64,000 bases of DNA from positions 2,108,001-2,172,000 of the forward strand of contig NZ_CP080492.1 in the NCBI RefSeq assembly GCF_019464495.1, written 5' to 3'. This DNA comes from Leucobacter luti (GTDB lineage Bacteria; Actinomycetota; Actinomycetes; Actinomycetales; Microbacteriaceae). The position numbers and the translations under genes are program-made. This document shows positions 1 through 57,936 of this stretch, piece by piece; positions within the stretch are counted from its first letter, which is position 1; each line of letters begins with the position of its first letter. The notes beneath the pieces were generated by a model. That model had not been told where the DNA came from. It saw only the letters and a program-made list of their open reading frames with translations, and searched no databases.

Positions 1-718
1 GGTGCAGGCAGGTCGAGTGCGCGCAGCACGTTGGCTGCAACGCGGTGATGCCCGACGGGAGCGAGGTGCAGCCGGTCGTGCGACCAATACTGGCGGCCGG
101 CGAGCTCTGCGTCGCTCCAGTTGTCGGCAAAGCGCACGTCGAGCCCGGCAGCGATTACCGCAGCGGCACGCGTGAGCTCGTCGCCCTTGGCGCGCACCCG
201 GCCACCCCTGGGAGCCCGCCAGTGGGGTTCGCGCCCGCGAGCAACAGCGGCTCGGCGCCCGCCTCCCGGATCTGGCGCAGCGCGGATTCCGTTTCCGAGG
301 CGATCCAGGCGAGATCGGTTCCGGGGCGCAGCATGTCGTTTCCGCCACCGTTAAAGCTCACGAGCGTTGGCGCGAGCGCGAGCGCCGGTCCGAGCTGCTC
401 CGCGAGGATTGCGCGGAGCAGGCGGCCGCGGATCGCGAGGTTGGCGTACTGGATCGGCGCTCCGTGTGCGTCAGCGAGGCCCTGGGCCACGAGATCAGCC
501 CAACCGCGCACCGAGCCGTCGGGTTGCTCATCGCCAACGCCCTCGGTAAAGCTGTCGCCGATCGCAACATATCGAATAGTCGCCGGTGCCTGCTCTGCTG
601 CCACCTCCCCAGCATATGCCTGCGAGCTGGGGTGAGTGAGGACTGTCGTGGCGCAGCCGCGGGCATCCGACAGTCCGCTGGGGTAACCCGCCGACACGCC
701 CGGCTTGCGCGCAGTCAC
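1..718 (-). CDS. SGNH/GDSL hydrolase, frameshifted and cut by window start
   Basis: Likely a small SGNH-fold esterase or lipase. The block I motif IGDSFTEG lies near the N-terminus and a GGGND motif follows. After the frame break the minus strand still encodes the family's C-terminal block with D-R-L-H-L (the DxxH catalytic pair). The break maps to the CCCC run at 205-208; one extra base joins the two halves. The open frame begins with a GTG at 718, but the domain could equally start from the GTG at 604; neither has a convincing ribosome binding site. The stop lies beyond position 1. Convergent or divergent partner is rpmB, which runs the other way. Function at family level is well supported; substrate is unknown. 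Confidence 0.72.
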
Positions 719-879
719 GGAGCAACGTAAGCTTGCTCCTTGGCTGTGCGCCGTCCCAGTGCGCAGACCGTGGGAGCGTTTCCGCTCGTTCGTGGCTTCG
801 GCCGAGATCGAGTAGTTGCCCTCGCAGACAAGAAATCTTGGGTGAGGCCGTCCGGTCTCACGGTATGAGAGGAAACATC

Positions 880-1116
880 ATGGCAGCAGTGTGCCAGGTG
901 ACCGGAGCCGTCCCCGGCTTTGGACACAACATTTCGCACTCGCACCGTCGCACCAAGCGTCGGTTCGATCCGAACATCCAGAAGAAGACCTACTTCGTGC
1001 CCTCACTCGGCCGCAAGGTGACGCTCACCCTGTCGGCTAAGGGCATCAAGGTCATCGATGCCCGCGGCATCGAGTCCGTTGTTGCTGATCTGCAGAAGCG
1101 TGGGGTGAAGATCTAA
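880..1116 (+). CDS. rpmB: 50S ribosomal protein L28
   Basis: 78-residue ribosomal protein of the large subunit. The N-terminus MAAVCQVTG and the central [10 protein letters not shown] and [14 protein letters not shown] stretches are typical of L28. It has a single cysteine and no paired CxxC zinc ligands, so it is the zinc-independent form. A GAGAGGAAACATC leader gives a usable ribosome binding site. It starts a three-gene ribosomal operon and its TAA stop overlaps the ATG of rpmG by one base. Confidence 0.97.
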
Positions 1117-1283
1117 TGGCTAAGGATAAGGACGTACGTCCGATTATCAAGCTCCGCTCGACGGCTGGCACGGGTTACACGTATGTGACCAAGAAGAACC
1201 GTCGGAACACCCCGGACCGCCTCGTGCTCAAGAAGTACGACCCGGTAGTCCGTAAGCACGTTGACTTCCGAGAGGAGCGCTAA
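1116..1283 (+). CDS. rpmG: 50S ribosomal protein L33 (cysteine-free)
   Basis: 55-residue L33, shorter than most gene-calling cut-offs. The protein begins [20 protein letters not shown] and ends DFREER. It has no cysteine at all, so it lacks the zinc ribbon of the C+ form. The ATG overlaps the rpmB stop by one base, and the stop is two bases before the rpsN ATG, so the three genes are surely co-transcribed. In other actinobacteria, cysteine-free L28/L33/S14 sets are often Zur-controlled duplicates; I could not find a convincing Zur box upstream here. Confidence 0.95.
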
Positions 1284-1285
1284 AC

Positions 1286-1591: not shown

Positions 1592-1633
1592 TCAGCTCGC
1601 ACGTGTGATTCGGTAGGTGCTGAACTACGCGAG

Positions 1634-1669
1634 ATGGGCGCGAATCCTTCGGGGTTCGCGCCCATTTTT
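1634..1669 (+). terminator. Rho-independent terminator of rpmB-rpmG-rpsN
   Basis: Perfect 11-bp stem ATGGGCGCGAA / TTCGCGCCCAT with a 10-base loop, followed directly by a T-run. It lies 43 bp after the rpsN stop. Confidence 0.9.
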
Positions 1670-2120: not shown

Positions 2121-2132
2121 TTTCACCCACCT

Positions 2133-2225: not shown

Positions 2226-4222
2226 GTGCCTCGTTCTCTGCGTGTTCTTGCTCCTGCCCTGCTGCTCGCGGCAACTCTTGGGATGCTGCTCGTGGGGCTC
2301 GCAATTGGCGGGGCTGCCGCCGAGCGGACCCTGGTGGATCCCGGTGCCGTCGTGCGCTACGGCGTCCCCATCACGCGCACGCTCGTCAACATCGCCATGG
2401 CTGGCCTCATCGGCTCGGTCGTCATGGCAATCTGGGCGTTTTCGAGTGAGCGGCCCGAGATGCGCCTGGCGCTCGACATCGCGGCCGGCTCCGCCGCCGT
2501 CCTGACCGTCGCAAGCGCCGCGACCCTCATCTTCACTTACGTTGACGTTTCCGGCCTCCCGTTCTCGGGGACGCCAGCTTCGGCGCGGGCCTCGCCCAGT
2601 TCGTCACCGAGATTGAGCTCGGCCAGCTGTGGTTCATCGAACTCCTCCTCGCCGCGGCGACGACCGTGCTGGCGTTCGCGGTGCGTGATCGGCGCCTGGT
2701 GCTGCTGGTGCTCATTGCAGCGCTTGCCACCTCACTGCCGCTCGCACAGCAGGGCCACGCCGCAGGCGCTTCGGGACACAGCCAGGCCGTAAACTCCCTC
2801 CTCGTGCACCTGATCGGCGCTGCCGTGTGGTTGGGCGGACTGCTGACTCTCGTCTTCGTCGCGTGGACCGTCGACCGAAAGCGGCTCTCAGTTCTCGCCG
2901 CCCGCTACTCCACGCTTGCGCTCTTCGCCTTCATCGGCGTCGCTGCTTCAGGGGTCGTCAGCGCCTGGCTGCGTATCGGCTCGCTCGATGCCCTGTTCGG
3001 CACGGGCTACGGCGTGCTCGTGATCCTGAAGACGGTCTCGCTCATCGCGCTCGGCACGTTCGGCGCGGTGCAGCGCCAATGGCTGATCCCGCGCATTGCC
3101 GACTCTGCCCGAGGGCAGCGCGCATTCGTGTGGTTCGTGACCGCCGAGCTAGCCGTAATGGGCATCGCGAGCGGTGTTGCAGGCGCCCTGGGCCGCACCG
3201 CGACCCCCGTTGCCTTGGAGCCGGCACGAGACCAGGGAGGCAAGATCAGCCCGGCCGAGTGGCTCACCGGTGATCCACTTCCGCCGGAGCTTACCCCGTC
3301 GAGCTACCTCACCATCTGGAAGTTCGACCTCGCCTGGGCGCTCGTGTGCGTCTTCGCACTCGGGCTCTACCTCGCTGCGGTGATCCGGCTCGCCCGGCGC
3401 GGCGATCGCTGGCCGATCGGCCGCACCATCTCCTGGGCGCTCGGCATCGCATTCCTGTTCTACACGACCAACGGTGCGCTGAATGCCTATGAGCAGTACA
3501 TGTTTAGCGTGCACATGCTCGCGCACATGATGCTGACGATGCTGATTCCGTTGATGCTCGTGCTCGGCGCCCCTGTCACACTCGCGCTGCGCGCCGCCGA
3601 GAAGCGCACCGACGGCTCCTGGGGCGGCCGCGAGTGGATCATGTGGGCCGTGCAGACCCCGTATTCAAAGTTCATCACGCACCCCGCTGTCGCAGCAATC
3701 GTGTTTGCCGGTTCGCTGTGGGTGTTCTACTTCACGCCGATCGCACGCTGGGCAGCGTCAGAGCATCTCGGGCACCAGTGGATGATCATCCACTTCCTGA
3801 TCGCTGGCTACCTGTTCAGCTTGTCCATGATTGGCATCGACCCGGTGCCGTATCGCTTCCCGTATCCGCTCCGCCTCGTCACGCTCTTTGCGACGATGGC
3901 CTCGCACGCGTTCTTCGGCGTGACGATCATGACCGGCGACGGGCTCATGCTCGCCGACTGGTACGGCGCCATGGGGCGCACGTGGGGTGCGACACCGCTT
4001 GAGGATCAATCAACGGGGGGCGGGATCGCCTGGGGAATCGGCGAATTGCCCACGCTCGCGCTTGCACTGGTCGTCGCCGTGCAATGGTCGCGCAGCGATG
4101 ACAAAGAGCAGAAACGCAAGGATCGCTTCGCGGATCGCTCGGGCGAAGCCGAGTTGCACGCCTACAACGACATGCTTGCCGCGCAGGCGAAGCGCGATAC
4201 CCGCACGGCGCAGCGCCCGTAG
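2226..4222 (+). CDS. CopD-CtaG fusion: copper transport / cytochrome c oxidase assembly membrane protein (frameshifted)
   Basis: Polytopic membrane protein of about 665 residues once repaired. The first half is a CopD-type copper-resistance domain (many membrane helices, HLIGAAVWLGGL motif). The second half is a caa3-type CtaG domain with histidine-rich helices (YMFSVHMLAHMMLTML, HQWMIIHFLIAGYLF) and the IGIDPVPYRFPYPLRL loop. The family is thought to deliver copper to the oxidase. The frame breaks at the GGGG run 2567-2570: the first frame reads correctly to VSGLPFSG, and one added G leads straight into DASFGAGLAQFVTEIELGQLW. Total length then divides by three exactly. The start is a GTG; nearby ATG codons are in other frames or inside the first helix. 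Confidence 0.88.
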
Positions 4223-4988: not shown

Positions 4989-6154
4989 TCAGCCCGGGAA
5001 GGAAACGCGCGGCCGGGGGCGGCGCAACTGCGTCACGAACAGCAGTGCCGCGGCGAGTGTGAAGGCGCAACTCATCACGAGTGGCCCCTGAGCGCCGCCT
5101 GCTGACGCGTACGCGATACCGCCGAGCAGCGGACCGGTCATCGCGCCGATGTTGAGCGCCGCCGTCCCGAACGCACCCGCCATCGTGGGAGCATCGGGGG
5201 CAGCGCGGAGCGAGGCCGCAATGAGGGTGCTCCCCACGGCAAACGACAGCGCTCCCTGCGCGAAAGCCAGGAGGAGGAGCACTGCAGGAATCGCGGCGAA
5301 GCTCGCGAGGATTGCCCAGCCGAAGAAGAGCGCGATTCCACCCACTGCGAGGACGCGCCGCGCGTGGACATCGCCCCAGCGGCCGGCCGCGGCAACACCG
5401 CCGAAGGCGCCCATGCCGAACAGCGCGAGCACCACGGGAACCGTCGTCGTGGGCAGCCCTGCGATCTCAGTGGCCACGGGGGCGAGGTAGGTGAACGCAC
5501 AGAAGGTGGCCCCGTTGACGAGCGCGCAGGCTCCGAGCGGCACGGTGAGGGTGCTGCGACGGAGCGCGGCGAACTCGCGCCGCAGGGGGTGAGTGGGGCT
5601 GCACCGCTCGTGCGGCGTGGTGCGAGAGTGAGCACCGCGAGGAGCGCTGGGAGCGACAGGAGCGCGACGCCCCAGAGCGTGGCTCGCCAGCTCAGTGCCG
5701 CACCCACTGCGGCGCCCGCTGGGACTCCGACGATGAGGGCGAGTGTGGTTCCACCGAGCACAACCGCGAGCGCGCGAGCGATGCGGTCAGCTGGCACGAG
5801 CGCCGTGACGGTGGCGAGGGTCACGGCCAGAAACCCGGCGCTGGTGAGCGCCGCGCCTACGCGGGTGAGGAGGAGCACAGCGAAACTGTCCGACATCGCG
5901 CCAATGACGTGCAGCATGATGAATAGTGCGAGCAGTGTGGAGAGCGCCAGCCGGGGCGACCAGCGGCGGCTTACCGCGGCCACGCTGGGTGCGCCGATGA
6001 CCATACCGGCCGCAAACGCGGAGGTGAGGGCGCTGGCCTGGGGCAACGTGATGTCGAGATCTGCGGCGATGGGCTGTAACAGCCCGGCCAGCATGAACTC
6101 GGAGGTGCTTTGCGCGAAAACGGCGCACGCGAGTAAGAAGATGATGAATGGCAT
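4989..6154 (-). CDS. MFS drug-efflux-type transporter (frameshifted)
   Basis: Twelve-helix major facilitator, about 388 residues after repair. The N-terminal helix with FAQSTSEFMLAGLLQPIAADL and the motif ALTSAFAAGMVIGAP match the Cmx/CmrA (chloramphenicol-resistance-like) and AraJ branch of DHA1 exporters. The frame breaks in the GGGGG run at 5585-5589 (CCCCC on the coding strand): one added C joins PLTPL to RREFAALRRSTLTVPLGA and the second half runs to a stop at 4989. I start at the ATG at 6154, which begins MPFIIFLL just before helix 1. An upstream in-frame start at 6211 would add a proline- and arginine-rich 19-residue tail. Substrate is not predictable. Confidence 0.82.
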
Positions 6155-6728
6155 CGTGGGTCTTTCGTGAGGAAGCGACGGTCGTGGGCGGACCGGCACA
6201 GCAGTGCTCACGCGTGTGGGATCACCGGTGTCATCGTGTGGGGCTCAGAACGCAGCGGTTCAGAGCGTGGATGATGGGATCACCGAGTGGCGCCTGGTGA
6301 AAAGCGCGACGATGTGGTGTGAGCTACCGGCGTGCCGGCAGCTCGACCTTTGATGCTTCGGGAGAACTCACGCTCGCAGTCTACGCGGTCCATTGCAGTG
6401 GCGCGCGAATGCCCCGAGCTGCGGCTGGGGCTGGGGCCGGGCGGAGGGAGACGGGGCCGGGCTGGGCTGGGGCCGAGCGGAGGGGGCGGGAGCTGCAATC
6501 GGGGACTGCGGCGTGCTGGTGTTCCTCGCAGACCAGATCCACATCGTATCCAGAGCATCGACATTCATCGGAATACTCCAAGGTAAACCCTAATTTTGGC
6601 TCCGGTTGGATACAATGGGAGCGCGGCGAGGGAGCGGGCGCGAGGCTCGCGATGGCAAGACTGCGCCAGCACCATAGCGACAACGACCGGCTCACCGCTG
6701 CCACCGTAGCCGGGGATAGAGGATCAGC
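6155..6728. other. Intergenic region upstream of the VOC gene
   Basis: No convincing gene. It lies between divergent transcription units (MFS on minus, VOC on plus). It contains a long G-rich tract at 6427-6490 and a TTGGATACAAT site at 6606-6616 with a weaker relative, ATCGTATCCAG, at 6543-6553. These are candidate GntR operator sites. Confidence 0.6.
6606..6616 (+). promoter_or_regulatory. Candidate GntR operator site upstream of the VOC gene
   Basis: TTGGATACAAT, a near-palindrome of the ATTGTATCCAAT type common for FCD-class GntR regulators. Ten of 11 bases match two identical sites at 11141-11151 and 11328-11338. It lies 112 bp before the VOC start codon. Confidence 0.45.
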
Positions 6729-11417: not shown

Positions 11418-13610
11418 ATGCCGAGACGCCGCAAACTCGATACCGGGGTGCCCTGGATCGAGCTGACCACCACTGACGCGGACTGGAAGAGCGCTGACCC
11501 TCAGCTGCTCGCCACGATGCTCGGCGAGATGCAGCTGATCAGGGCCTTTGAGGAAGCCGTGCTGGAGCTCGCGGGTGCTGGTCTCGTGCACGGTCCAGCC
11601 CACTCGAGCATTGGCCAGGAAGGCGGCGCCGTTGGATCCATTCTGACGCTGCGCTCCAGCGACGGAGTGAACGGTTCGCATCGCGGTCACCACCAGTTCC
11701 TTGCCAAGGCAATGACCCACGTCTCGGGCGGTGCCTTGGATCTCCAAGCGCTTGTGGACACCGACATGCAGGCCATGCTCGACCGCACTCTCTCTGAGAT
11801 CCTCGGCCTCGCTGCGGGATTCTCAGGCGGTCGCGGCGGCTCCATGCACCTGCAGTGGCTCGAGGCTGGCGCGCTCGGCACGAACGCGATCGTGGGCGGT
11901 GGGGCCCCGATCGCCGGCGGCAACGCCTGGGCGCAGCGCTTCGCCGGCACCGATGACGTATCGATCAACTACTTCGGAGATGGCTCGAGCCAGATCGGTT
12001 CCGTGCTCGAATCGATGAACCTAGCTGCGGTGTGGCAGACGCCGGTCATGTTCTTCATCGAGAACAACCTCTATGCCGTGTCGACGCACGCGAGCGAGGC
12101 CAGCGCAGACACACGGTTCTCGGTCCGCGGGCAGGGCTTCTCGATCCCGGCGTGGCGCGTTGACGGAATGGACCCCCTCGCGGTGCACCTCGCGACCCAG
12201 GAAGCGCTGGAGCGGATGCGGAGCGGGCAGGGTCCCGCGATCATCGAGGCTGAGGTCTACCGATTCTTCCACCAGAATGGCCCATTCCCAGGCAGCGCCT
12301 TCGGGTACCGCAGCAAAGCGGAGGAGAAGGACTGGCGAGAGCGCGATCCGATCGCGCTCGTGGCCCGCAAGATGCAGGAACTCGGTCACCTCACCGCAGC
12401 TGAGGCGGAGGCGGTGCGCGAACAGGCACAACAGGCCATGGCCGATGCCGTCGCGAAGATCATTGAGAATGATCCTGAGCGAGAAGGGAAACGCCGGATC
12501 AAGCCAGCGCTCTGGCCGGACCCTGCGGTGGTCGATACCGGGATCCGCAGCGACGCGAGCGAGCTCGCAGCATGGACAGCGGTCGAGCCGGATCCCACCG
12601 CCGGCACCTGGCGCGACGTCAAATTCGTGGAGGCCGTGGCACAGACGATGGCGCGCCGCATGGAAACTGACGACCGCATCGTGGTGCTCGGAGAAGACGT
12701 GCACAAGCTCGGTGGCGGCACCAACGGCGCGACGAAGGGGCTCGCCCAGCAGTTTGGCTCGGAGCGCGTGATCGGTACGCCGATCAGCGAGAACGCCTTC
12801 TTTGGCTTCGCGACGGGGGCGGCACTGGACGGCCGGATCAGGCCCGTCGTGGAGTTCATGTACCCCGACTTCATGTGGGTAGCCGCCGACCAGGTATTCA
12901 ACCAGGCTGGCAAGGCACGCCACATGTTTGGCGACAACAACACGGTGCCGCTGGTGCTGCGTACCAAGGTGGCCATGGGGTCGGGCTACGGCTCACAGCA
13001 CCTGATGGATCCCGCGGGAGTCTTCGCAACCCAGGCCGGGTGGCGCATCGTCGCAGCCTCGACGGCAGCAGACTACGTTGGACTGCTCAACGCGGCGCTC
13101 GCGCTCGAAGATCCGGTGCTCGTCATCGAACACATGGACCTGTACGGCAAGGCAGACAGCCTGCCCGACGGGGACCTCGACTACATCATTCCCCCCGGGA
13201 GCGCTGCGATCCGGAGGGCGGGATCCGACGTCACGGTGCTGAGCTATCTCTCGATGGTGGATCACGCACTCGAGGCCGTCGCCCAAACCGGGATCGACGC
13301 CGAGGTGGTAGACCTGCGCTGGCTTGATCGCGCCTCCATTGACTGGGGCACGATCGAGGAGAGCATCAAGAAAACCAACGCTGTGCTGATCGTAGAACAG
13401 GGAGCCCAAGGATCCTCATATGGCGCATGGCTGGCAGACGAGATCCAGCGCCGTTTTTTCGACTGGCTGGATCAGCCGATCGAGCGGGTGACCGGGGGCG
13501 AAGCGAGTCCCAGTATCTCGAAGGTGCTCGAACGAGCAGCGATTGCGGGCACCGAAGAGGTCGTCGCTGGCCTCGAGCGCGTGCGCGCGGCAATGGGAGG
13601 AAACTCATGA
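11418..13610 (+). CDS. Fused E1 alpha-beta subunit of a 2-oxo-acid / acetoin dehydrogenase complex
   Basis: 730-residue thiamine-diphosphate enzyme in which the alpha and beta E1 chains are one polypeptide. Residues about 1-380 are alpha: SIGQEGGAVG, SHRGHHQFLAKA, the GGRGGSMH loop, and the ThDP motif GDGSSQIGSVLESMN ending FFIENN near residues 188-218. Residues about 400-730 are beta: VVLGEDVHKLGGGTNGATKG, ISENAFFGFATGAAL, and the transketolase C-terminal domain with DLRWLDRASID. It decarboxylates a 2-oxo acid or diketone and passes the acyl group to E2. It overlaps the E2 ATG by 4 bp. No E3 gene lies nearby. Confidence 0.92.
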   Translation: MPRRRKLDTGVPWIELTTTDADWKSADPQLLATMLGEMQLIRAFEEAVLELAGAGLVHGPAHSSIGQEGGAVGSILTLRSSDGVNGSHRGHHQFLAKAMTHVSGGALDLQALVDTDMQAMLDRTLSEILGLAAGFSGGRGGSMHLQWLEAGALGTNAIVGGGAPIAGGNAWAQRFAGTDDVSINYFGDGSSQIGSVLESMNLAAVWQTPVMFFIENNLYAVSTHASEASADTRFSVRGQGFSIPAWRVDGMDPLAVHLATQEALERMRSGQGPAIIEAEVYRFFHQNGPFPGSAFGYRSKAEEKDWRERDPIALVARKMQELGHLTAAEAEAVREQAQQAMADAVAKIIENDPEREGKRRIKPALWPDPAVVDTGIRSDASELAAWTAVEPDPTAGTWRDVKFVEAVAQTMARRMETDDRIVVLGEDVHKLGGGTNGATKGLAQQFGSERVIGTPISENAFFGFATGAALDGRIRPVVEFMYPDFMWVAADQVFNQAGKARHMFGDNNTVPLVLRTKVAMGSGYGSQHLMDPAGVFATQAGWRIVAASTAADYVGLLNAALALEDPVLVIEHMDLYGKADSLPDGDLDYIIPPGSAAIRRAGSDVTVLSYLSMVDHALEAVAQTGIDAEVVDLRWLDRASIDWGTIEESIKKTNAVLIVEQGAQGSSYGAWLADEIQRRFFDWLDQPIERVTGGEASPSISKVLERAAIAGTEEVVAGLERVRAAMGGNS

Positions 13611-14931
13611 CCGTGATCGTACGCATGCCCGAGATCGCGACCGGCTCCGACGAGGCAGCGATTGCCGGGTGGCTGGTCGCCGTCGGGGAGACTGTCGCAG
13701 TGGGACAGGCCCTCGTCGAGATCGAGACAGAGAAAGCAACTGTCGAGTTCGAGGCTGAGCAACCGGGCACACTCGCTGGCATCCTGCTCGCGGCGGGGAG
13801 CACGGCCCCGGTCGGGGCTCCGATTGCAGTGCTTGCCGCTGACGGTGAGTCGATGGCTGATGCGCTCGCCGCGGCTGGCGCAGCTGGCGCGGGCACTGCT
13901 CCGTCAGCTGAGGCCGGAGCGGACCAGGCGCACAAGCCGGTCTCGGCGGAGGCAGCGGTCGTTCCGACGGCGGTGCCGGTGCCGGTGCCGGTGCAGGCGG
14001 CGGCCGCGCCCGAGGCACCGGGCGCGCGCCGCTTTGTGAGTCCACTGGTGCGCAAGCTCGCGCGTGAGCGCGGCATCGACCTCGTGTCGGTGCGCGGATC
14101 CGGCCCGGGGGCAGGATTGTGCGGCGTGATCTTGACGGCATCGGCGGGGGCACCGCAGCCCCAGCTGCGATCCCGCAGCCGGCTCAGCCCTCCCTGCCAC
14201 CCCAGCCAGCGGCTGCTCCTCTGGCATCCACGGGTGCGAGCGCGTCAGCCGAGTGGGTCGACGTGCCCCACACCGGCATGCGGCGCGCAATCGCACGACG
14301 GCTGGCCGAGAGCAAGAGCACAGTCCCGCACTTCTACCTGGTGGCGGACTGCCGGGTGGACGCGCTGCTTGAGCTGCGCAGTCAGATCAATGCCGTCGAG
14401 GGCGTGCGTGTCTCAGTGAACGACTTCGTCGTGAAGGCGGTAGCCGGAGCGTTCCGCGACGTGCCGGCGGCGAATGCGATCTGGACCGAGGAGGCCACGC
14501 GCCGGTTCACCGGTGTGGACATCGCTGTAGCGGTCTCGGTGCCAGCAGGTCTGCTCACTCCCGTGGTGCGCGGGGTGGAGCGCATGTCGCTCGGTGAGCT
14601 CGGAACGGCGATCCGGGATCTTGCGGGGCGCGCACGCGAGGGAAAGCTCAAACAGCATGAACTCGAGGGTGGCTCGTTCTCCGTCTCAAACCTGGGCATG
14701 TACGGCACCTCAGAGTTCGCCGCGATCCTGAACCCGCCCCAGTCCGGAATTCTCGCGGTCGGGGCCGCGCAGCAGCGACCGGTCGTGCAGGCCGATGGCA
14801 CGGTGGGGGTCGGCACGGTGATGACGGTGACACTCTCGGCGGATCACCGCGTGCTCGACGGCGCGCTCGCCGCAGAGTGGCTGGCTGCCTTCACGCAGCG
14901 GATCGAGAACCCGCTGAGTATTCTCGTCTAG
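13607..14931 (+). CDS. Dihydrolipoamide acyltransferase E2 (frameshifted)
   Basis: About 441 residues after repair. An N-terminal lipoyl domain carries the lipoylated Lys43 in EIETEKATVEFE. An Ala/Pro/Val-rich linker follows, then a peripheral subunit-binding domain (RRFVSPLVRKLARERGIDL...), a second Pro/Ala linker and the catalytic domain ending with SADHRVLDGALAAEW, the HxxxDG active site. The break is in the GGGGG run 14107-14111: one more G turns GSGPGA into GSGPGGRIVRRDLDGI, a perfect binding-domain end. The 4-bp overlap with E1 shows tight coupling. Lipoylation would need a ligase such as the one at 44.3-45.3 kb. Confidence 0.9.
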
Positions 14932-14992
14932 GGAATGGAGATCCGATGCGGATCCTGGCCGCGTGCCGGCCGCAACCGTGAGGAGGAACACC

Positions 14993-15617
14993 ATGGCAAC
15001 ACTGCTACACATTGATTCTTCGGCTGCGGGTGAGCTCTCAGCGACGCGCGCACTGAGCCGCGCGTTCGCCGAGACCTGGCGCACGGCGGGCCCGGAGCGC
15101 CGGATCGTGGTGCGCGATCTGCACGCGGATCAGCTCCCGCACCTCGGCTCGGTTGCGCTGCACCGGCCGCGGGCGGCACGGGGCGAGACTGGGTTCGACC
15201 CGGCGCAGGCTGAGCTGCAGGACCGCGTGCTCGCGGAGCTGCTGGCGGCCGACGTGGTCGTGATCGGGGCGCCGATGTACAACTACAGCATGCCGTCAAC
15301 GCTCAAGGCGTGGCTGGATCTAGTGCACATTCCCGGTGAGACGGCGTTCACCGACCCCGCGGACCAGCCGCTGCGCGGCAAGCGCGCGGTGGTCGTCACG
15401 GCGCGGGGGATCGCAGCCGAGCCGGGCATTGATGAATACGTCACTGGGCCGCTGCGCCAGGTGCTTGCGGTGGCGTGCGGGATGGACTTCGAAGTGGTCT
15501 CAACGAGCCGCACGCTCGCGAACGTCATCCCCGCGCTCGGGCCAGAGTACGCCGCGGCCGAGTTCGAGCAGGCGATGGCGCGTGTGCGAGCTCGCCGCCC
15601 GTCCCGAGCCCGCCTAG
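14993..15617 (+). CDS. FMN-dependent NADH azoreductase (AzoR-like), possible frameshifted end
   Basis: Flavodoxin-fold reductase of about 208 residues. It starts MATLLHIDSSA after a strong AGGAGGA site, and has the AzoR motif PMYNYSMPSTLKAWLD and VVVTARG. In the literal frame the protein does not stop until 15892, running through a repeat and antisense to RidA with a low-complexity Arg-rich tail. In the next frame the sequence reads ELAARPEPA and stops at 15617, which fits family length, so a frame change near 15585-15590 is likely (one base gained or two lost). Family members reduce quinones and azo compounds. It follows E2 by 61 bp and may be in the same transcript. Confidence 0.8.
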
Positions 15618-15641
15618 CCGGCATCCCCGCGCGATCACCCG

Positions 15642-15712
15642 AGAGGGACCCCGGATGCCGACTGCGGTCGCGCCGCAGCCGGCATCCGGGATCCCTCGGG
15701 AGCGGGGCTAGG
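15642..15712. repeat. 71-bp hairpin repeat, copy 1
   Basis: Seventy of 71 bases match 26143-26213. It folds as a long nested hairpin: outer arms GAGGGACCCCGGATGCCG and CGGCATCCGGGATCCCTC (one mismatch), inner arms CTGCGG / CCGCAG around TCGCG. It sits between the converging azoreductase and RidA genes and overlaps the RidA stop codon. Confidence 0.85.
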
Positions 15713-16175
15713 CCGGGTGCGGCAGTGCGATCCAGCCCTCGATCTCCACGAGGAGCTGGGGTTGCGCGAGCGCTGAGACGATTGCAAGCGAGTGCCCGGG
15801 GAGGTCGCCAGCGGGGAACCACTCCGAGAGAATTTCGTTTCGCGCTTCCGCGTACGCGACCATGTTCTCCTGGCCGACAAGGAAGGTCATGAGCCGCACG
15901 ATCGACTGCGGCGTACCGCCAGCTGCGGCAATGAGTGCCTCGATGTTGCGGAGCGTGTGCCGAGTCTGTGCCGCCACATCAGCTGGAACATCGCCAGCAG
16001 GATTCGCGCCAACTTGGCCTGAGATGAACACCCACCGCGCGGCCCCGGTCACGGTGGCGAGGTGAGAGTATGCGCCCACTGGTGGCGCGAGATGGTCCGG
16101 AGAATACCGCTGGATCCGGAGTTCAGCGGCAGGCGAGCCGACGGGGTCAGAGGAATGGCGATCGAGGGTGCTCAC
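15708..16175 (-). CDS. RidA family (YjgF/YER057c) protein
   Basis: 155-residue member of the RidA/UK114 superfamily, which hydrolyses reactive enamine or imine intermediates or acts in specialised ring-degradation steps. Typical pieces are PVGAYSHLATVTGAARWVFISGQVG, the NIEALIAAAGGTPQSIVRLMTF stretch and the end LLVEIEGWIALPHPA. The N-terminus is about 20 residues longer than the core. GTG start with AGGAGCACC upstream. It is the last gene of the minus-strand amide cluster, separated from the aldolase by a hairpin. The arginine that binds carboxylates in classic RidA (near position 105) is not clearly in place, so it may not be a deaminase. Confidence 0.88.
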   Translation of the reverse strand: MSTLDRHSSDPVGSPAAELRIQRYSPDHLAPPVGAYSHLATVTGAARWVFISGQVGANPAGDVPADVAAQTRHTLRNIEALIAAAGGTPQSIVRLMTFLVGQENMVAYAEARNEILSEWFPAGDLPGHSLAIVSALAQPQLLVEIEGWIALPHPA

Positions 16176-26227: not shown

Positions 26228-26902
26228 TTACATCTCTTCGGTCAAGGCGAACAGCAGCTCCGCGAGTCGATCGCCCAGCTGCTCGAACGCCTCGGACGAG
26301 CGTTCGCCTGCAAGCGCCGTGACGCGCAGCGCCTGCTCGTACACCCCGCTCAACACGGGGATGACACGCTCTACCGGGATGACAAAGCGCCGCCCGGCTG
26401 CTGTGAGGACGCGTTCCACGACGCCGGAGATGCTCGCGTAGAAATTGTCCATGAAGTCGTCGTGGCCAGGCGCGAGGGCCGGATCCCGCATCGCAAGCAG
26501 CAAGAACTCCGCCTCGAGTACGAACCACGCGGTGGCATCTTGCGATGGTGCGAAGAACTGCACGATGTAGCTGGCTGCCTCAGCGGGGGAGACACAACCG
26601 GCTCGCTCGCGGAGAATGGGCTCCAGCTCCTGTGCTTTCACTGCGAGGTCCGCCGCGCGACGTTCGAACTCGCGCGTGAGCAGCGCGAGAAAGAGCTGTT
26701 CTTTGCTGTCGAAGTTCGAGTAGAACGCCCCGCGTGTGAACCCGGCCCGCGCGCAAATGGCCTCGACTGCCGCACCCTGCAGGCCGGCCTCCGCGAACAC
26801 CTCAATCGCCGCGTCGAGCAAACGAGTGCGAGTCTCTTGGCGTCGCGCGCTCGGCGGTAGCTCGGTGGCGGGTGCCACGTGGCTCGCGGGTTGGGTGGTC
26901 AT
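26228..26902 (-). CDS. TetR family transcriptional regulator
   Basis: 224 residues. The N-terminal DNA-binding domain runs from about residue 20 to 65: ETRTRLLDAAIEVFAEAGLQGAAVEAICARAGFTRGAFYSNFDSKEQLF in family form. The C-terminal ligand domain is not assignable. It is transcribed away from the MMPL-YhgE pair, and two tandem 17-bp inverted repeats in the shared promoter are its probable operators, making it the likely repressor of that pair. Confidence 0.94.
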   Translation of the reverse strand: MTTQPASHVAPATELPPSARRQETRTRLLDAAIEVFAEAGLQGAAVEAICARAGFTRGAFYSNFDSKEQLFLALLTREFERRAADLAVKAQELEPILRERAGCVSPAEAASYIVQFFAPSQDATAWFVLEAEFLLLAMRDPALAPGHDDFMDNFYASISGVVERVLTAAGRRFVIPVERVIPVLSGVYEQALRVTALAGERSSEAFEQLGDRLAELLFALTEEM

Positions 26903-26944
26903 AGTGCGTAGTTTCTCACGTTCAGCTGGTTCGAAGCGGAGGCC

Positions 26945-26983
26945 GGATACATTAGTGTATCGAAACGGATACGCTCGTGTATC
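26945..26983. promoter_or_regulatory. Tandem TetR operators
   Basis: Two copies of GGATAC-N4-GTGTATC at 26945-26961 and 26967-26983, spaced 22 bp (two helical turns) centre to centre, in the divergent tetR/MMPL promoter region. GATAC/GTATC are the palindromic arms. Confidence 0.75.
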
Positions 26984-27014
26984 GTCCGTTCATGATCGGA
27001 AGGCCCCACCACGC

Positions 27015-29914
27015 ATGTCGACCCTGCTCTATGCGATTGGCCGGTGGGCCACCGGTGCACGGAAGCTCGTCCTCATCCTCTGGATCGCGCTGCTGGCGGT
27101 GCTGGGGATCGGCGCTGGCCTGTTTTCGCAGGGTGCCAATGCCCCGATCTCGATTCCAGGTACTGAATCGCAAGAGGCGATCGACACTCTGGGACGTACG
27201 TTCCCCGAGGTGAGTGGCACGAGCGCCACGATCATCGTCGTCGCGCCGGAGGGTGAACGAGTCGACGCAGCTCCGTTCACGCAGGAGATCGTGGCTGCGG
27301 CGGAGGAACTCGCGGACTTGCCGCAGGTCAACGCCGTCTCGTATCCCTTCGCCGACCAGGGCGCGACCGGGCTCAGCGATGACGGCCGCGCAGCACTGCT
27401 CACCGTGCAGATTGATGCGACGCAGAGCGATACACCGGCGGAGACGAGCGACGGCATCACGCGGGTCTCCGCTGAGCTGCAGGACGCACTCCCTGCCGGC
27501 TCCGAAACTTCCTACGGCGGCGACCTCTTTTCGGTCTCCATTCCTGGCTTCACGATCACCGAGGCCCTCGGTGTGGTGATCGCGTTCATCGTGCTCCTGT
27601 TCACACTCGGGTCACTCCTCGCGGCGGGCATGCCGCTCCTCATTGCGATCCTGGGTGTCGGCGTCACCATCGCTGGCCTGTTCGTCACGACCGCGTTCGC
27701 GGACATGACCTCGACCACTCCAATGCTCGCGCTGATGCTCGGCCTCGCCGTCGGCATCGACTACACCCTCTTTATTGTGAGCCGCCATCAAGAGCAGCTA
27801 CGCGCGGGCTTGGGCGTGAACGAATCCATTGCGCGCGCTACCGCAACCAGCGGATCTGCTGTGGTGTTTGCCGGCCTCACGGTAATCATCGCGCTGCTCG
27901 GCCTCGCCGTTGCGGGGATCCCGTTCCTCACCGCGCTCGGCGTCGCGGCCGCCGCAGGTGTTGGCATCGCAGTGCTGATCGGCATCACGCTCACGCCCGC
28001 CGTGCTCGCCATGGCTGGCGTCAAGATCCTGCCCAAGAAGCAGCGCGCCGCGTATCTCGCGGCGACGGGGCAAGCGCTCGAATTCACGGAGGCGGAAGCG
28101 ACAGCCGGACCGGATAGCGGCGACCACCCGGCTCTCACGGATTCCCGTCAGGCCGCAAAGCCAGCGAAGGCGACCGCGCCAGCACCGGCCGCGGCCGGTC
28201 CGAGCCGAGCGGACCGGTTCTTTGGCGGATGGGTCCGACTGGCCACTGCGAAGCCGATCGTCACCATCCTCGTGGTGCTCATCGGCCTTGGCGCCGCCGC
28301 GCTGCCAGCGATGAGTCTGAGGCTCGCTCTCCCGGGCGCCGAGACGCTCGAAGAGACGAACCCGGCTCGGGTCACCTACGAACTCACGGGTGAGCACTTT
28401 GGTGAGGGCGCGAACGGCCCGCTGATCCTCACCGGCTCGATCATCACGAGCGAGGATCCGCTCGGCCTGATGGAGGATCTCGCCGACGAAGTTCGGGCGC
28501 TCCCTGGCGTGGCAGATGTGCCGCTCGCAACTCCGAATCAGAACGCAGACACCGGCATCATTCAGGTGGTACCGGAGGACGGCCCACAGTCGGAGAGCAC
28601 CGAGAAACTCGTTGCCGAGATCCGATCCCACCATGATGAGTGGGAGCAGAAGTATGGTGTGAGTCTCGCGGTGACCGGGTTCACCGCCGTCGGCATTGAC
28701 GTGTCGCACCTGCTGGGGGAGGCGCTGCTGCCGTTCGGGATCCTGGTAGTGGGGCTATCGCTGATCCTGCTCGCCATGGTGTTCCGCTCCGTGTGGGTCC
28801 CGATTAAGGCAACGCTCGGGTATCTGCTTTCCGTTGGCGCCGCGTTCGGCGCGGTCGTGGCAGTGTTCCAGTGGGGATGGCTCGGTGATCTCCTCAACGT
28901 GCACTCGGCCGGCCCGGTGTTGAGCTTCATGCCGATCATCCTGATGGGTGTGCTGTTCGGCCTTGCGATGGACTATGAAGTGTTCCTCGTGGCTCGAATC
29001 CGCGAAGAGTACGTGCACGGTGCGAATGCGCAGGACGCGATCCGGCGGGGGTTCGTTGGCAGTGCAAAGGTGGTGACGGCGGCCGCGCTGATTATGTTCG
29101 CCGTGTTCGCGGCCTTCGTTCCTGAAGGCGATCCGAGTATCAAGGTGATTGCGCTCGGCCTCGCTGTCGGAGTGTTCGTGGACGCGTTCATTGTGCGCAT
29201 GACCCTGGTTCCTGCCGTGCTTGCGCTGCTCGGCGACCGCGCGTGGTGGATGCCGCGCTGGTTCGCCAAAGTGCTGCCCTCGTTCGATGTCGAGGGCGAG
29301 GGACTCGCGCGGGAGCTCGCCTACGCAGAGTGGCCAGCGGATCAGCCCACCGCGGTGATCGCGAGTGAGCGGGCGCAGATCGGGGCAACGGCCAAGTTGC
29401 CAGAGCTGCGCGTTGCCCCCGGCGACGTGCTCGTGCTCGATCCGCGTGATCCGGTGAGCCTGCCGCTTGCGGAAGCTGTGGTCGGCCGCGCACCCGTGAC
29501 CCGAGGGTCCGTGAAGGTCGCTGGTCTCCTGCTGCCGGAGCGCGCCTCGTCGCTGCGCGCCCGATCGGCGTGGGCCACACCAGAGTCGCTGCGCGAGGCG
29601 CTCGGAGAACGCCCGTCGGTGCTGGTGCTGGATCTGCGCGCGGCAGCGGAGCGGCCCCTTCCGCTCGCGCTCGTTGACGCGATGCGCTCTGGACTCGCAG
29701 CGCGCACCGTTGAAACCTCCGCTCCGCGGCCCCCGAACTCACACTTGTGGTGCTCGGAGAACGCGAACTTGCGCAGCGGATCCTGCCCGGCGACACACGA
29801 TTCGTGATGCCAGCGAGCGCCGCCGCGTCGGTCGCCGATCCAGCATCTGATCACGGTCCGGCACGAGCACACAGTCTTCCCGCAGCATCGATTCACGAAG
29901 GAGGCGCCCGATGA
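27015..29914 (+). CDS. MMPL family transporter with degenerate ABC-ATPase-like C-terminal domain (frameshifted)
   Basis: About 966 residues after repair. Residues about 1-760 are an RND-type MMPL exporter with two six-helix halves (first half LGLAVGIDYTLFIVSRHQEQL; second half GVLFGLAMDYEVFLVARIREEY). From about residue 776 the chain looks like an ABC nucleotide-binding domain: LRVAPGDVLVLDPRDP (no Walker A Gly or Lys), RGSVKVAGLLLPERASSLR, a Walker-B-like PSVLVLDLRAA, then TLVVLGERELAQRILPGDTRF. It probably cannot bind ATP normally. The frame breaks in CCCCC at 29730-29734; one more C carries it to a TGA that overlaps the next ATG. I start at the ATG 27015, the first before helix 1. Confidence 0.88.
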
Positions 29915-32117
29915 GCGCCGCACTCTCCCGCCTGTCCGGCCGCAAGCCTGTGCGCTGGACCACGATCGTCGGGCTCATGCTGGTGCCGCTGACGGTCGCG
30001 GGTGTCCTGCTCTGGGGCCTCTGGAATCCGACCGAGCGGCTCGACACGGTCACCGCAGCGATCGTGAACAACGACGAGGCCGTGGAAGTTGATGGGCAGC
30101 TCGTGCCGCTGGGCCGCGTGCTCGCCGGCGAACTGATCGGTGACGCGAAGAAAAAGGCCGCGGACGATCAGACGAACTTCACGTGGGTGCTCACTGACGA
30201 AGAAGACGCCACCGCTGGTCTCGATGACGGCCGCTACGCGACCGTGATCACGATCCCGGAGAGCTTCTCGGCTGCGGCAACCTCCCTGTCGGGAGACCCA
30301 GACGACGCAGAGCAAGCGACGATCGACATCGCGGAGAGCGACCGCGGCCGCCTGATCGATACGGCGCTGTCCGGAATCGTGACCCAGACCGCCACCACGG
30401 TACTGAATCAGCAGCTGGGTGAGCAGTTCGTCGGCAGCGTGTTTGTGGGCATGACCGAGCTGCACAAGGGCATTGGTGAAGCCGCTGATGGCGCTACTCA
30501 GCTGGCCGACGGCGGGGAGCAGCTCACAGACGGGGCGAATCAGCTCGCTGACGGCACGCAGCAGTTGGCTGACGGTACGCAGCAGCTTTCGAGCGGAGCA
30601 GGGGAGCTGGCTTCGGGGGCGGGATCGCTCGCGTCCGGCGCTGGGGAACTCGCAGGGGGCGCAGGATCGCTCTCGTCCGGGGCGAACGACCTTGCCGGCG
30701 GCGCCGGGACGCTCGCCGGGGGTCTGCGGTTGTTTGCCTCCGGGGACGGGACCGCAGCGAACCCCGGGATGAGCGGGTTTGCCAACGGACTGACGCAGTA
30801 CTCCGCTGGCGCGCGTGTACTCGCAACGGGCGATGGGACGGAGACGAACCCGGGCCTTGCCGGGCTCGCGAGCGGTGTCGAAGCCTATACGAGCGGCGTG
30901 AACGAGGCCCTCACCGGGTTGCAGGCCGGGGCCGGAGCCGCGATCGAACCCCTCACCCAGCTGAAGACCGCCATTGAGGCCGGCGCGATTCCCGTTGAAA
31001 ATCCGGGCGCGGTTGCCGCACAGCTTGGTCAGCTCATCACCGAGCTGCAGGGCGCATCAAGCTCGGCCCCAGAGTCCCCGGTTGAACAGTTGAAAGCACA
31101 GGGGGTGCCCTTGCCGGCGGCGTGCGGCAGGCGGCAATTGGAGCGGATACCGCAGCCGGTGCCGCTGAGCAGCTCGCAGGCGCTGGGGTGCAGCTCTCCG
31201 CGGGTGCTGAGCAGCTCGCTGTCGGAGCCGAGGGGCTGGCTGGTGGTGCGTCGCAGCTTGCCGGCGGTGCGTCGCAGCTGGCCGGTGGCGCCTCGGAGCT
31301 CGCGGGCGGCGCCTCCGGGCTGGCCACGGGTGCGTCCGGCCTTGCGGCAGGGACGTCAGAGCTCGCCGCGCAGACGCCTGAACTCGCCAAGGGTGCGTCT
31401 CAGCTCGCCGATGGTGCTGGAAAATCTGCAGAAGGCGCTTCTGAGCTCGCAACGGGCCTCGGTGAGGCCGTGAGCGGGATCCCGAATTACTCGCAGTCGC
31501 AGCGCGACAAGCTCGCCGAGACGGCGCTCACGCCAGTGAAAGCGGAGGGAGGCAGCGACGAGCTGTTCAACGCCTCTGGGGTGCCACTGTTCGCGGGCAT
31601 CGCGCTCTGGGCAGGTGCGCTGGCGGCATTCCTGATGCTTGCGCCACTCTGGCGACGCACGCGTGAAGCGGCCCGCGGTGTGGGCGCGATCACGTTCCGC
31701 AGTGCGCTTCCCGCGCTCGGACTTGGCGCGGCGCAGGGCGCAATCGCCGGCCTCGTGCTGCCGATCGCGCTCGGCTACGGCTTTGCGCAGGGGGCCGAGT
31801 TCTTCGGGCTCGCGCTGCTCGCCGGTGTCGCGTTTACGCTGCTGGTGCAGGGCCTGTCTGCACTGTTCGGCGGCTTCGGAAGGTTTATCGCGTTTGTGCT
31901 GCTCGTCGTGGCGTTCGCGGTGGGAATCGTATCGACCGTGCCGGGTCCGCTCGCGGCGATCGGGGATATGAGCCCCGTTGGGGCAGCACTGTCTGGGTTC
32001 CAGGCCGTTGCTACCGGCGCGGCTGGCGCTGGAGGTGCGGCGGTGTTGCTCACGCTCTGGGCCTGTGCAGGGCTCGTGCTCACCGCTCTCGCCGTGCGGA
32101 GGGAACGAGCGGCGTAG
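29911..32117 (+). CDS. YhgE/Pip family membrane protein (frameshifted)
   Basis: About 735 residues after repair. One N-terminal helix (TIVGLMLVPLTVAGVLLWGLWNP) is followed by a large outer domain, with long runs of a 7-residue pattern (ADGTQQL, SSGAGEL, ASGAGSL, AGGASQL), then about five C-terminal helices. This is the YhgE/Pip plan (phage-infection-protein relatives, ABC-2-like membrane core). The frame breaks in GGGGG at 31101-31105; one added G continues as GALAGGVRQAAIGA. It overlaps the MMPL stop by 4 bp. Such proteins often sit beside MMPL or ABC exporters and may form a complex with them. Repeats make the DNA here GC-rich and low in complexity. Confidence 0.88.
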
Positions 32118-48260: not shown

Positions 48261-49489
48261 TTATGGGGTCACGGGCTGTGCGGATGATGCGCCCGCCGTG
48301 GAGCGCGCGAGTGCTCGCTCCGCGCCAACGGATACGCGGGCGATGATGACGGTCGGCACGATCACCACGAAGCTGATGACGCCCATGATCAGCGAGAACG
48401 TGGGGACTCCGAACTGCTCAATGAGTGCGCCGCCGATGAGCGGCGCGAAGCTGGAGCCCACGAGGTACGCGCCGAGCAGGGGGCCAGACCACCTGCCGCG
48501 GGCATCAAGCCCCGCCGCCGTCGCGATGAACAGAGAGAACGCGAAAGCATAGATCGTGTTGACGCCGATGATGAGCGCGGCGAGCAGCGTCGGATCTTCG
48601 GCAAAGCCGATCCAGATCTTGAGCGCACCCCGGTGGTGAGCGCGATCGCGAGCGGGGCCGCGCGGCCGATGCGCGCGCCACAGATCGAGACGAGCAGCAT
48701 GCCGAGGATGCCGCCTGCCGCGGCGAGACTGAGAGCGAAGCCGAGACCCTGCTCATCGAGACCGACGGCGTCACCGAGCACCGGTGCCATTGTCCAGATC
48801 GCGTCCTCGCTGGTGCCCCAGAGCGGGAACACCAGGAGAATAGCGAAGCCGGCGACCGTGATCCGTCGCGGCTCTGCAATGGCAAGGCTGGTGGTCACAT
48901 CGACGGGCTCGGCGTGCTCGGGGGAGTCCGGGAGCCATCTCGCGAGCGTGAGACCGGCGAGCGAGATCAGCGCAAGCGCACCGAACACGGTGCCCTGCGT
49001 GATTCCGATCAGCGGAATCACGGCGAGCACAAGAGTGATGAGCACACGGTTGACGAGCCCGCTCGTGGCGGAGACTCGATTCGGGTTCCGAAGTGCGGCG
49101 ATCGCGGCCCCTGAGGTGGAGATTGCGGCACCGACGCCTGCGCCGCCGACGATCAGTCCGGTTACGGCGAGGGTGGGGTTCGGGATCAGTGCCGCGGCGC
49201 CGAACGCCACGACCGCAACCGCAAGCCCGGCGCAGGCGAGTGTGCGGCGTGCGGCTCCTGCCGCGAGGCGCGATGTTCCGAGGCCCACCACAGCGGAGGC
49301 CAGCAGCCCCCAGGTGAGGATATTGCCGCTCGTAATGACGTCGAAGCCGAGATGCGCGAGCGCCGTCATGATGAACGGCGCAAGGTTTGCCATCATCAGG
49401 CTCGCCAGGGCAATGACGAACGTGGCGCTCCCGTTGCGCAGAGACAGCGGATGGCGCGGGTCGATCGCGCGTGGTGTGGTGGTGTTCAC
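48261..49489 (-). CDS. MFS transporter (frameshifted)
   Basis: About 409 residues after repair, twelve helices. It starts with GTG (MNTTTPRAIDPRHPLSLRNGS). The frame breaks in the CCCC run at 48628-48631 (GGGG on the coding strand): one more G joins ALTTGG to ALKIWIGFAEDPTLLAALIIGVN, and the C-terminal half ends ARSTAGASSAQPVTP. Divergent from the TetR gene at 49.6 kb with a palindrome between them, so probably repressed by it. Substrate is unknown, perhaps related to the amidohydrolase downstream. Confidence 0.84.
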
Positions 49490-53128: not shown

Positions 53129-53142
53129 CAGCGCCCCGAGCG

Positions 53143-54384: not shown

Positions 54385-54425
54385 GATTCTCGCTTCCAGT
54401 CGGAATGCTCGGGCAGAGTGACGGA

Positions 54426-55901
54426 CTAGGGTCGCGCCGCGGCGCGAGGCTGATAGGTGGTGATCTGGGTGGATCGTGCGACGATCGCACGCAGATCGGC
54501 GAGCTCGGGACCGAGCTGACCGAGGGCCTGTGCTTGCAGCAGCATGTTGCCCATCGCGGTGGCCTCAACCGGTCCGGCGAGCACGGGCAAGCCGGAGCGG
54601 TCCGCGAGCCGCTGGCACAGCAGCGTGTTTTGCGAGCCGCCTCCGATGATGTGGATCACCGAGACGTCGCGATCGGCAAGCGCCGCCCCGGTGGTCACCG
54701 CGTCGGCAAACGCAATCGCGAGGCTCTCGACGATCGAGCGCACGATCTCGGCCGGCCCCTCTGGGGCTCGCTCGCCACGCTCGGTGAACCAGCTCAGGAT
54801 CCGGCCGGGGATATCGCCAGGCGGCATGAACACCGGATCGTTGACATCGAACACCGGGACCGGGCCGGACACGCGTGCCGCCGCGTCGAGCAGTGCACTC
54901 AGCGTGCTCGCCCCGCCGGCACTCAGACTCGCTGCGCCGGACTCGCTGCGCTCCCAGTGCCGCAGTGACTCGGACAGCAACCACATGCCCATGACGTTGT
55001 GGAGGAACCGAGTGGTCCCCGCCACGCCGCCCTCATTCGTGAAGTTCGCTGCGCGCGCCGCCTCCGTGAGCACCGGCGCATCGAGTTCGAGGCCGACGAG
55101 ACCCCACGTGCCACAGGAAATATAGGCAAAGTCTGAGCGGGTGCTGGGGATCGCGGCTACCGCTGAGGCCGTGTCGTGCGAGGCGACTGCGACAACGTCG
55201 AGTGGCCGCCCCACGATCGCGGCCACGTCTGGCGTGAGCGGGCCGAGCCTGGTCCCTGCGTCAACCAACGGAGCCAGGATCCGGCGGGGGATTCCAGCCC
55301 GGTCCGCAAGCGCAAGATCCCACTCGCGGGAGCGCGGATCGAGCAGCCCGGTCGTCGAGGCGTTCGAGCGCTCGGTGGCTTCCGCGCCGGTGAGCCAGAA
55401 GTTCAGCAGATCCGGCACCAGCAGCATCCGATCTGCCTCGGTGAGCAGTTCCCCCTCGGTCGCCAACTGGAAGATCGTATTGAAGGTGAGGTGCTGCAGC
55501 CCGTTCCTGGCGTACAGTTCCTCGGCGGAGACGCGCGCGTGCACCGCAGCGACCCCGGCATCGCAGCGGGCATCACGATAGTGGTACGGAATTCCGAGGA
55601 GCCGGCTGTCGCGGAACAGGCCATAGTCGACGGCCCATGAGTCGATCCCGACCGAGGCGATCTCGCCAGGCGCGCTGCGCTCAGCGGCGGTGAGGCCGGC
55701 GAGCGTCTGCCGATAGAGCTCGAGCAAATTCCAGTGCAGCCCGTCGCGGGTGCGCACTGGATCGTTCGCAAAGCGCGCGACGTGCTCGGTCCGCAGCACT
55801 CCGCCGTCGCGGTCGGCCTCGACGCGGCCGACGATCACCCTGCCGCTGGTTGCGCCAAGATCAACTGCGGCGACGGCGCCCCGCGCGCGCTGCTCGGTCA
55901 T
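54426..55901 (-). CDS. rhaB: Rhamnulokinase
   Basis: 491-residue FGGY carbohydrate kinase. N-terminal [14 protein letters not shown] phosphate loop, the RhaB-type [15 protein letters not shown] and [13 protein letters not shown] segments, [21 protein letters not shown] and the C-terminal ATP site [14 protein letters not shown]. It phosphorylates L-rhamnulose to rhamnulose-1-phosphate. Overlaps the aldolase/dehydrogenase stop by 4 bp, confirming the rhamnose assignment. Confidence 0.95.
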
Positions 55902-57936
55902 CGCAGGAATGCGGCGGCGACGCCGGAATCGACGGGAATGTGCAGGCCGGTCGTGCGGGTGAGCTCGGGGCCGGTGAGTACGTAGACCGCGTCGGCGACG
56001 TTCTCAGGCACGACTTCGCGCTTGAGGATCGTGCGGTTTGCGTAGAACTGGCCGAGATCCTGCTCGTCAACACCGTAGGTTGCGGCGCGGTTCGCCCCCC
56101 AGCCCGAGGCGAAGATGCCAGATCCGCGGACCACGCCATCGGGGTTGATCCCGTTGACGCGGATCCCGTGCTCGCCCAGCTCCACGGCGAGCAGCCGCAC
56201 CTGGTGGGCCTGGTCGGCCTTTGTGGCGGAGTACGCGATGTTGTTGGGGCCGGCGAAGACGCTGTTCTTCGAAGAGATGTAGATGACATCGCCGCCCATG
56301 CCCTGCGCGATCATGGCGCGAGCCGCAGCCTGAGAGACCAGGAAGGAGCCCTTAGCCATGACGTCGTGCTGGAGGTTCCAATCCGCCTCGGTGGTGTCGA
56401 GCAGTGACTTCGAAAGTGAGAGCCCAGCGTTATTGACGATGAGATCAACGCCTCCGAAGGCGAGCACTGCCGTGTCGATGGCTTCCTGCACCGCCGCGGC
56501 ATCAGCAACGTTCGCTGCGACGCCGATGGCGACGTCAGAGTTCCCGAGTTCGGCGGCTGCCGCTTGCGCCTTTTCGAGATCCAGATCGGCGACGACGACA
56601 CAGGCTCCCTCGGACGCGAGGCGGGTGGCGATGGCCTTGCCGATGCCGGAGGCTGCTCCGGTGACAAACGCGATCCGGCCCTGGTGCGACTTCGGCCGGG
56701 GCAAGCGCTGCAGCTTCGCTTCTTCGAGCGCCCAGTACTCGATGCGGAACTTCTCGGCGTCGCTAATCGGAGCGTAGGTGGAGAGTGCTTCAGCACCGCG
56801 CATCACATTGATGGCGTTGAGGTAGAACTCGCCAGCGACGCGCGCGGTCTGCTTGTTCGCGCCGAAACTGAACATGCCGACGCCGGGGACCAGCACGATG
56901 AGCGGATCGGCGCCGCGCATCGCCGGGCTGGCCTCGTCGGCGTGCGCGTCGTAGTACGCCCGGTAGTCGGCGCGGTAGGCCTCGTGGAGCTCGCCCAGGC
57001 GGGCGATCTGCTCTTCGGCCGACGCAGTTGCGGGGAGGTCAAGCACCATTGGCTTGACCTTGGTGCGGAGGAAATGATCCGGGCAGCTGGTGCCGAGGGC
57101 GGCGAGGCGGGCGAGTTCTTCGCGCGCCATGAAATCGAGTACGGCGTCACTGTCGGTGAAGTGGCCGACCATGGGCTTATCGCGGCTCGCGATGCCACGG
57201 ATCACGGGGGCGAGCTGTGCGGCGCGGGTGCGGCGCTCGGCCTCCGGCAGGGCTTCGAAGCCGGCGATCACGGGGCCGAACGGCTCAGCGGCTCCGTGCT
57301 CGGCGATGTAGGCGGCGGCGGTGTCGATGATCCAGAGCGAGTTCTGCTCGGTTTCTGCGCTCGAATCGCCCCACGCGGTGATGCCGTGCCCGCCGAGGAT
57401 GCCGATATGGCTTCTGGGTGCGCTTCTTTGATCGCGGCGATGTCGAGGCCGAGCTGGAAACCTGGGCGGCGCCACGGCACCCACACGACGCGGGTGCCGA
57501 AGATCTTGGCGGTGAGGGCTTCGCCGTCCGCGGCGGTCGCGATCGCGATCCCGGAGTCGGGGTGCAGGTGGTCAACGTGCGCGGCATCGACGAGGCCGTG
57601 CATGGCCGTGTCGATTGACGGAGTCGCGCCGCCCGTGCCGTGCAGGCAGTAGTCGAGAGCAGCGACCATCTCGTCTTCGCGATCAACACCGGGGTACACC
57701 GACGTGAGCGCGCGGAGTCGATCAATGCGCAGCGCCGAGAGGCCGGCGGCGGTCAGCGTGCCGAGATCCCCGCCGGAGCCCTTCACCCACATGAGCTCGA
57801 TCGTCTCACCGGTCACCGGATCGATGGCAGGCCCCTTCGCGGAGGTGTTGCCTCCGGCAAAGTTCGTGTTCTTCTTGTCGGCGCCCAGCCGGTTGGAGCG
57901 GGCGAGAAGTTCCTCAGCGGCGAGGGGGAGAGTCAT
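55898..57936 (-). CDS. Bifunctional rhamnulose-1-phosphate aldolase / short-chain dehydrogenase (frameshifted)
   Basis: About 679 residues after repair. The first 400 or so are a class II (zinc) aldolase of the RhaD/FucA type: NFAGGNTSAK, WVKGSGGDLG, and the zinc His pair in HVDHLHPDS. The last 260 are an SDR: AFVTGAASGIGKAIA, VNNAGLSL, SSKNSVFAG, Y-S-A-T-K, ending [10 protein letters not shown]. Together they split rhamnulose-1-phosphate to dihydroxyacetone phosphate and lactaldehyde and oxidise or reduce the latter. The frame breaks at GG 57409-57410; one more base joins PEA to HIGILGGHGITAWG. Start at 57936 (MTLPLAAEELL). Confidence 0.9.

Follow-up and report, generated by a model that had tools for sequence, protein, structure and literature searches.

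Frame breaks in a 64-kb stretch of a Leucobacter chromosome are best explained as probable consensus errors of its assembly

Introduction

The window analysed here is a 64-kb stretch (G000:C1:2108001-2172000) of a single-contig Leucobacter genome of 3,408,875 bases. Its E1 gene has a best match in Leucobacter sp. PH1c (88%), and its start lies ~93 kb from dnaA (2,014,387-2,014,872). A first-pass annotation had described eight genes of this window as interrupted by frame breaks, and had attributed these breaks to bases lost in sequencing rather than to eight independent decays. The question raised by this locus is whether these genes are broken in the cells or only in the record.

Materials and methods

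Reading frames were decoded with a 7-state codon-usage HMM trained on the genome itself, with ORFs from 20 of its stretches plus the window as seed and retraining on 14 of these 20 stretches. A break was called where the coding signal switched frame on the same strand and the upstream frame stayed open for more than 30 bp into the downstream coding signal, a cut of our own choice that separates breaks from gene boundaries. Raising this cut to 60 bp keeps, by a count made by eye, 6 of the 7 window calls and 2 of the 10 control calls. The outside sample consisted of 50 further stretches of the same genome (998 kb), and the control of 36 stretches from six related genomes. Relatives' proteins were searched for in a set of 54 Leucobacter genomes, own genome included, and a large protein-database search covered the CopD-CtaG, RhaD and E2 genes.

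Results

Frame breaks in the window

The genes under study, including one additional candidate, are the following:

1..613, extending beyond the window start, minus strand: gene named SGNH hydrolase in the first-pass annotation, frame change at the C run 205-208
2226..4222, plus strand: CopD-CtaG gene, frame change at the G run 2567-2570
5034..6211, minus strand: MFS transporter (MFS1), frame change near the G run 5585-5589, also an HMM call
13607..14931, plus strand: E2 acyltransferase, frame change at the G run 14107-14111
26736..29911, coding signal from 27014, plus strand: MMPL-family gene (Pfam MMPL), C run 29730-29734 near the 3' end
29911..32117, plus strand: gene called YhgE in the first-pass annotation, G run 31101-31105, also an HMM call
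48270..49489, minus strand: second MFS transporter (MFS2), C run 48628-48631, also an HMM call
55898..57936, minus strand: rhamnulose-phosphate aldolase/dehydrogenase (RhaD), compound local change near 57400-57411
14963..15892, plus strand: azoreductase-like frame (name by eye), candidate ninth break near 15580-15589

Inspection of the window letters placed the G/C runs, and the GG at 57409-57410, exactly where they had been reported. The HMM called breaks at seven of the eight sites and nowhere else in the window. The MMPL break was missed because the tail of the gene is short, and was recovered through relatives' proteins. All seven calls belonged to the class "one lost or two gained", hereafter the loss class, and the junction intervals of six of them contained a G/C run of at least 4, vs 1.7 expected from random intervals of equal width (P = 0.00065). 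Seven of the eight sites coincide with G/C runs of 4-5; the exception is the aldolase site.

Two arguments advanced earlier for sequencing error carry no weight of their own. The divisibility of the repaired lengths by three is automatic, since two open frames are being joined. As for the shared error class, the loss class was also found in 8 of the 10 control calls from relatives, and genes of the window that overlap by four bases yield loss-class calls as well, so that the class bias of weak calls is no evidence by itself.

In 16 coding segments of the window, the open frame outlasts the coding signal by more than 45 bp: six corresponded to breaks already named, two to the MMPL gene and the azoreductase-like frame, and eight were others. 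In the azoreductase-like frame, both the coding signal and the homology to relatives stop at 15580-15589, with the frame open to 15892 (~300 bases more). This end is backed by four of five proteins from relatives, 217-225 aa long and representing three different genomes, the fifth match being weak and apparently spurious. The azoreductase-like gene is a probable ninth break, of the class opposite to that of the eight. The segments at 878-2117 were considered as a broken gene and rejected, as they are separate intact genes (by eye L28, L33, S14 and HU).

Comparison with relatives

Relatives' proteins aligned to the CopD-CtaG, E2, MMPL, YhgE, MFS2, SGNH, MFS1 and RhaD genes in two collinear parts, each in a different frame, with the transition at the claimed place. 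Single-frame alignments across the junctions also exist (1 to 89 per site), and were read as overruns or chance matches. In the SGNH gene, relatives' proteins align from 613 to 206 in one frame and from 260 to -174 in another, with the HMM switch at 199 (interval 193-213). The downstream piece of the CopD-CtaG gene carries Pfam CopD and Caa3_CtaG, and its frame change is backed by relatives L009 and L153. Pfam domains are cut off at the junction in two genes, MFS1 and E2. In MFS1 the MFS_1 match ends at profile position 179 of 347, and homologues of 43-59% identity lie in two frames whose overlap includes the run, so its junction is less exactly placed. In E2, E3_binding is cut at position 27 of 36 and the catalytic domain lies in the other frame. 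For the MMPL gene, six of 11 C-terminal pieces from relatives, representing five distinct genomes, change frame at 29699-29735, the other frame taking over from 29699-29720. Across the junction of the YhgE gene, relatives including L143 and L011 occupy two frames; the name was left unconfirmed by Pfam, which gave one sub-threshold match upstream and none downstream. In MFS2, relatives L149 (82%) and L141 (75-78%) change frame at 48629. Finally, RhaD was matched at 84% identity or more in 20 genomes of the genus, and in all 20 the frame measures 683-832 aa from stop to stop, vs 557 aa in our genome.

The aldolase site differs in nature from the rest. It had been presented as a GG one base short, and the comparison with relatives does not bear this out: all 11 relatives' loci that contain the motif are set apart from the window by several base differences, with a net change of minus one in the window. 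These differences cover about ten positions, where the 11 loci share a Gly-Cys stretch. Judged from these alignments, the aldolase break is not a simple homopolymer under-call.

Breaks shared by relatives had been named as an observation that would overturn the error model; instead, all eight genes were single-frame in relatives. Among the loci compared, no conservation of the shift sites, the mark of programmed frameshifting, was seen. Programmed frameshifting or phase variation, in which the shifts would serve the cell to control these genes, could draw on the position of the switches at homopolymers and on the presence of membrane proteins among the products. Nevertheless, not only relatives but also near-identical proteins are single-frame, the affected genes are unrelated, and the runs of 4-5 fall below the eight or more named for homopolymer-driven realignment in the part of PMC3711429 available to us. 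We give this explanation almost no credence.

Near-identical intact proteins

For the three genes covered by the database search, the best near-identical protein was whole and differed by only 0-3 residues. The pieces of the CopD-CtaG gene were identical to the intact 646-aa protein P0001 at 96/96 and 546/547 positions (642/643 in total), and those of RhaD to the 679-aa P0121 at 175/175 and 500/500 (675/675). Two further RhaD entries gave 175/175 and 498/500 (P0122) and 173/175 and 494/500 (P0123). The E2 pieces matched the intact 441-aa P0241 at 165/167 and 269/270 positions (434/437). The longest contigs linked to the intact entries measured 465,597 bases (P0001 and P0121), 3,432,167 bases (P0122 and P0241) and 49,719 bases (P0123), whereas the E2 entry linked to a contig of 3,408,875 bases, the length of our own record, is the 209-aa fragment P0243. 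At this degree of identity the intact entries presumably come from the same species and, as judged from their protein sequences, the breaks of CopD-CtaG, RhaD and E2 are absent from the near-identical records.

In the three genes compared, the break was neither common to close kin nor joined by other decay, as would be expected of pseudogenes. Only whole forms were found elsewhere, with no on/off states of phase variation in sister records, at runs 4-5 long.

These data also bear on the possibility that the breaks are real, recent frameshifts private to this strain, produced by slippage in short G/C runs of mostly dispensable genes under a NucS repair blind to short indels. By eye, the functions of the eight window genes appear dispensable, and a NucS gene with an open frame is present. 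In the portion of PMC8228993 accessible to us, EndoMS/NucS is reported to be unable to correct indels, but polymerase proofreading is credited with suppressing short ones. A broken NucS as the cause of a mutator state was rejected, the frame being open. A difficulty for private frameshifts is that proteins with 0-3 residue differences from their intact counterparts coexist with eight genes broken in 56 kb of coding sequence. Natural frameshifts between such close strains are expected to be much rarer than missense changes.

Breaks beyond the window

The 50 outside stretches and the window together gave 46 loss-class and 11 gain-class calls. Loss-class calls at a G/C run of at least 4 numbered 6 in 55.7 kb of coding sequence in the window vs 6 in 639.0 kb in the six relatives (P = 1.6e-4); the sensitivity of the HMM may differ in relatives of higher GC. 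From 1.84 Mb up to the window, 12 stretches contained 18 such calls in 198.9 kb, vs 12 in the 610.8 kb of the 38 remaining stretches (P = 3.9e-5, for a zone drawn only after the counts were known). These 38 stretches were not significantly different from the relatives (P = 0.10). The window also differed from the 38 stretches in loss-class calls at runs (P = 0.0026).

Five of the 50 outside calls were picked by eye and searched against NCBIfam profiles. In four of them the profile runs across the junction: fumC (profile positions 1-216 and 220-446), proC (2-131 and 136-263), purD (12-316 and 324-423) and a dihydroxy-acid dehydratase family protein (14-442 and 455-564). The fifth, smc, is probably broken as well; its downstream piece matches SMC_prok_B, and its short upstream piece had no match in either library. 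The fumC break proves little, because a second family member exists elsewhere in the genome. Only one occurrence of purD lies above the cut-off, split across two overlapping frames, and its junction interval contains no run above GG. It is a loss-class break but not a clear run error. Breaks may strike genes regardless of function; five of the 50 outside calls bear on this, namely proC, fumC, purD and the dehydratase by profile and smc by its downstream piece only, with purD not at a long run. The breakage of purD and proC speaks further against private frameshifts in dispensable genes.

Paired breaks were also observed outside the window. Two loss-class breaks (L208:632 and L208:1721) lie ~1.1 kb apart in one gene that by eye is kdpD-like, and a broken kdpB-like gene at L208:4024 adjoins it. 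In one oxidoreductase-like gene (by eye), two gain-class switches were found (L156:2143 and L156:2577), a kind absent from the window.

Clustering near dnaA

Up to ~170 kb from dnaA, breaks were about five times as dense as elsewhere, at equal G/C-run content. The zone 1.84-2.17 Mb, which includes dnaA, comprises stretches L204-L209, L110 and L155-L159 and the window, and held 24 loss-class breaks at runs in 254.6 kb of coding sequence vs 12 in 610.8 kb elsewhere. Denser G/C runs were rejected as the cause of this cluster: runs of at least 5 numbered 349 in the 238 kb of near-origin stretches and 93 in the 64 kb of the window, compared with 1109 in the other 760 kb. In the run-length spectra of our genome and the six relatives, long G/C runs were not clearly depleted, and A/T runs of at least 4 are rare in our genome. 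All seven sampled genomes have ~8-17 times fewer G/C runs of length six than of length five, and hardly any of length seven or more.

The clustering lends some support to private frameshifts, the area near dnaA being, by eye, rich in catabolic genes. Weighing this with the evidence given above, we consider recent strain-private frameshifts improbable. Less probable still is the idea that short G/C runs truly slip more often around the origin, leaving dozens of true private frameshifts within ~170 kb of dnaA.

Discussion

Eight breaks in 56 kb of coding sequence, 0-3 residue differences from intact proteins, a location mostly in G/C runs, and the breakage of purD and proC together make consensus error the best reading. 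On these sequence comparisons, the breaks are very likely to be consensus errors of this Leucobacter chromosome assembly, and error is far likelier than eight separate decays. The central proposal of the first-pass annotation is thereby supported, both by the single-frame relatives and by the near-identical whole proteins of three genes. For most breaks, a short G or C run would have been called at the wrong length, shifting the frame; a smaller number may be other local miscalls. The cause probably lies in base calling or polishing. Run loss does not account for all breaks, the exceptions being purD, the aldolase site and the azoreductase-like tail. The main point against a simple error model is that a plain run-length error would not predict the density near dnaA.

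In the portion of PMC12007338 available, false deletions predominate among the indels of one long-read assembly, with runs of 4-5 as their most frequent setting, and A/T runs are affected more often than G/C runs. As far as that portion describes it, this error profile fits the window breaks in the main. The Kastor long-read assembly errors (PMC12007338, as accessible) resemble ours in that positions are mostly lost, runs are of ~4-5 and genes whole in references get split, but differ in that here the runs are G/C and not A/T, chromosomal density is uneven and one site is compound. Our search for a paper on GC-rich nanopore frameshifts found none. The breaks also resemble the "H-pseudogene or error" singletons of GeneTack (PMC3711429, same portion as above), which are non-conserved frame transitions in otherwise normal genes, with the difference that here near-identical intact proteins tell private from shared breaks in three genes.

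Read as consensus errors, the breaks are no real biological feature, and the cells very probably carry whole genes. The annotation of the record shortens real genes, and a 209-aa E2 fragment linked to a contig of this length is already in the protein database, vs 441 aa in another record. Claims of gene loss or of pathway content drawn from the literal frames, as for purine, proline or rhamnose metabolism in this Leucobacter, are probably wrong.
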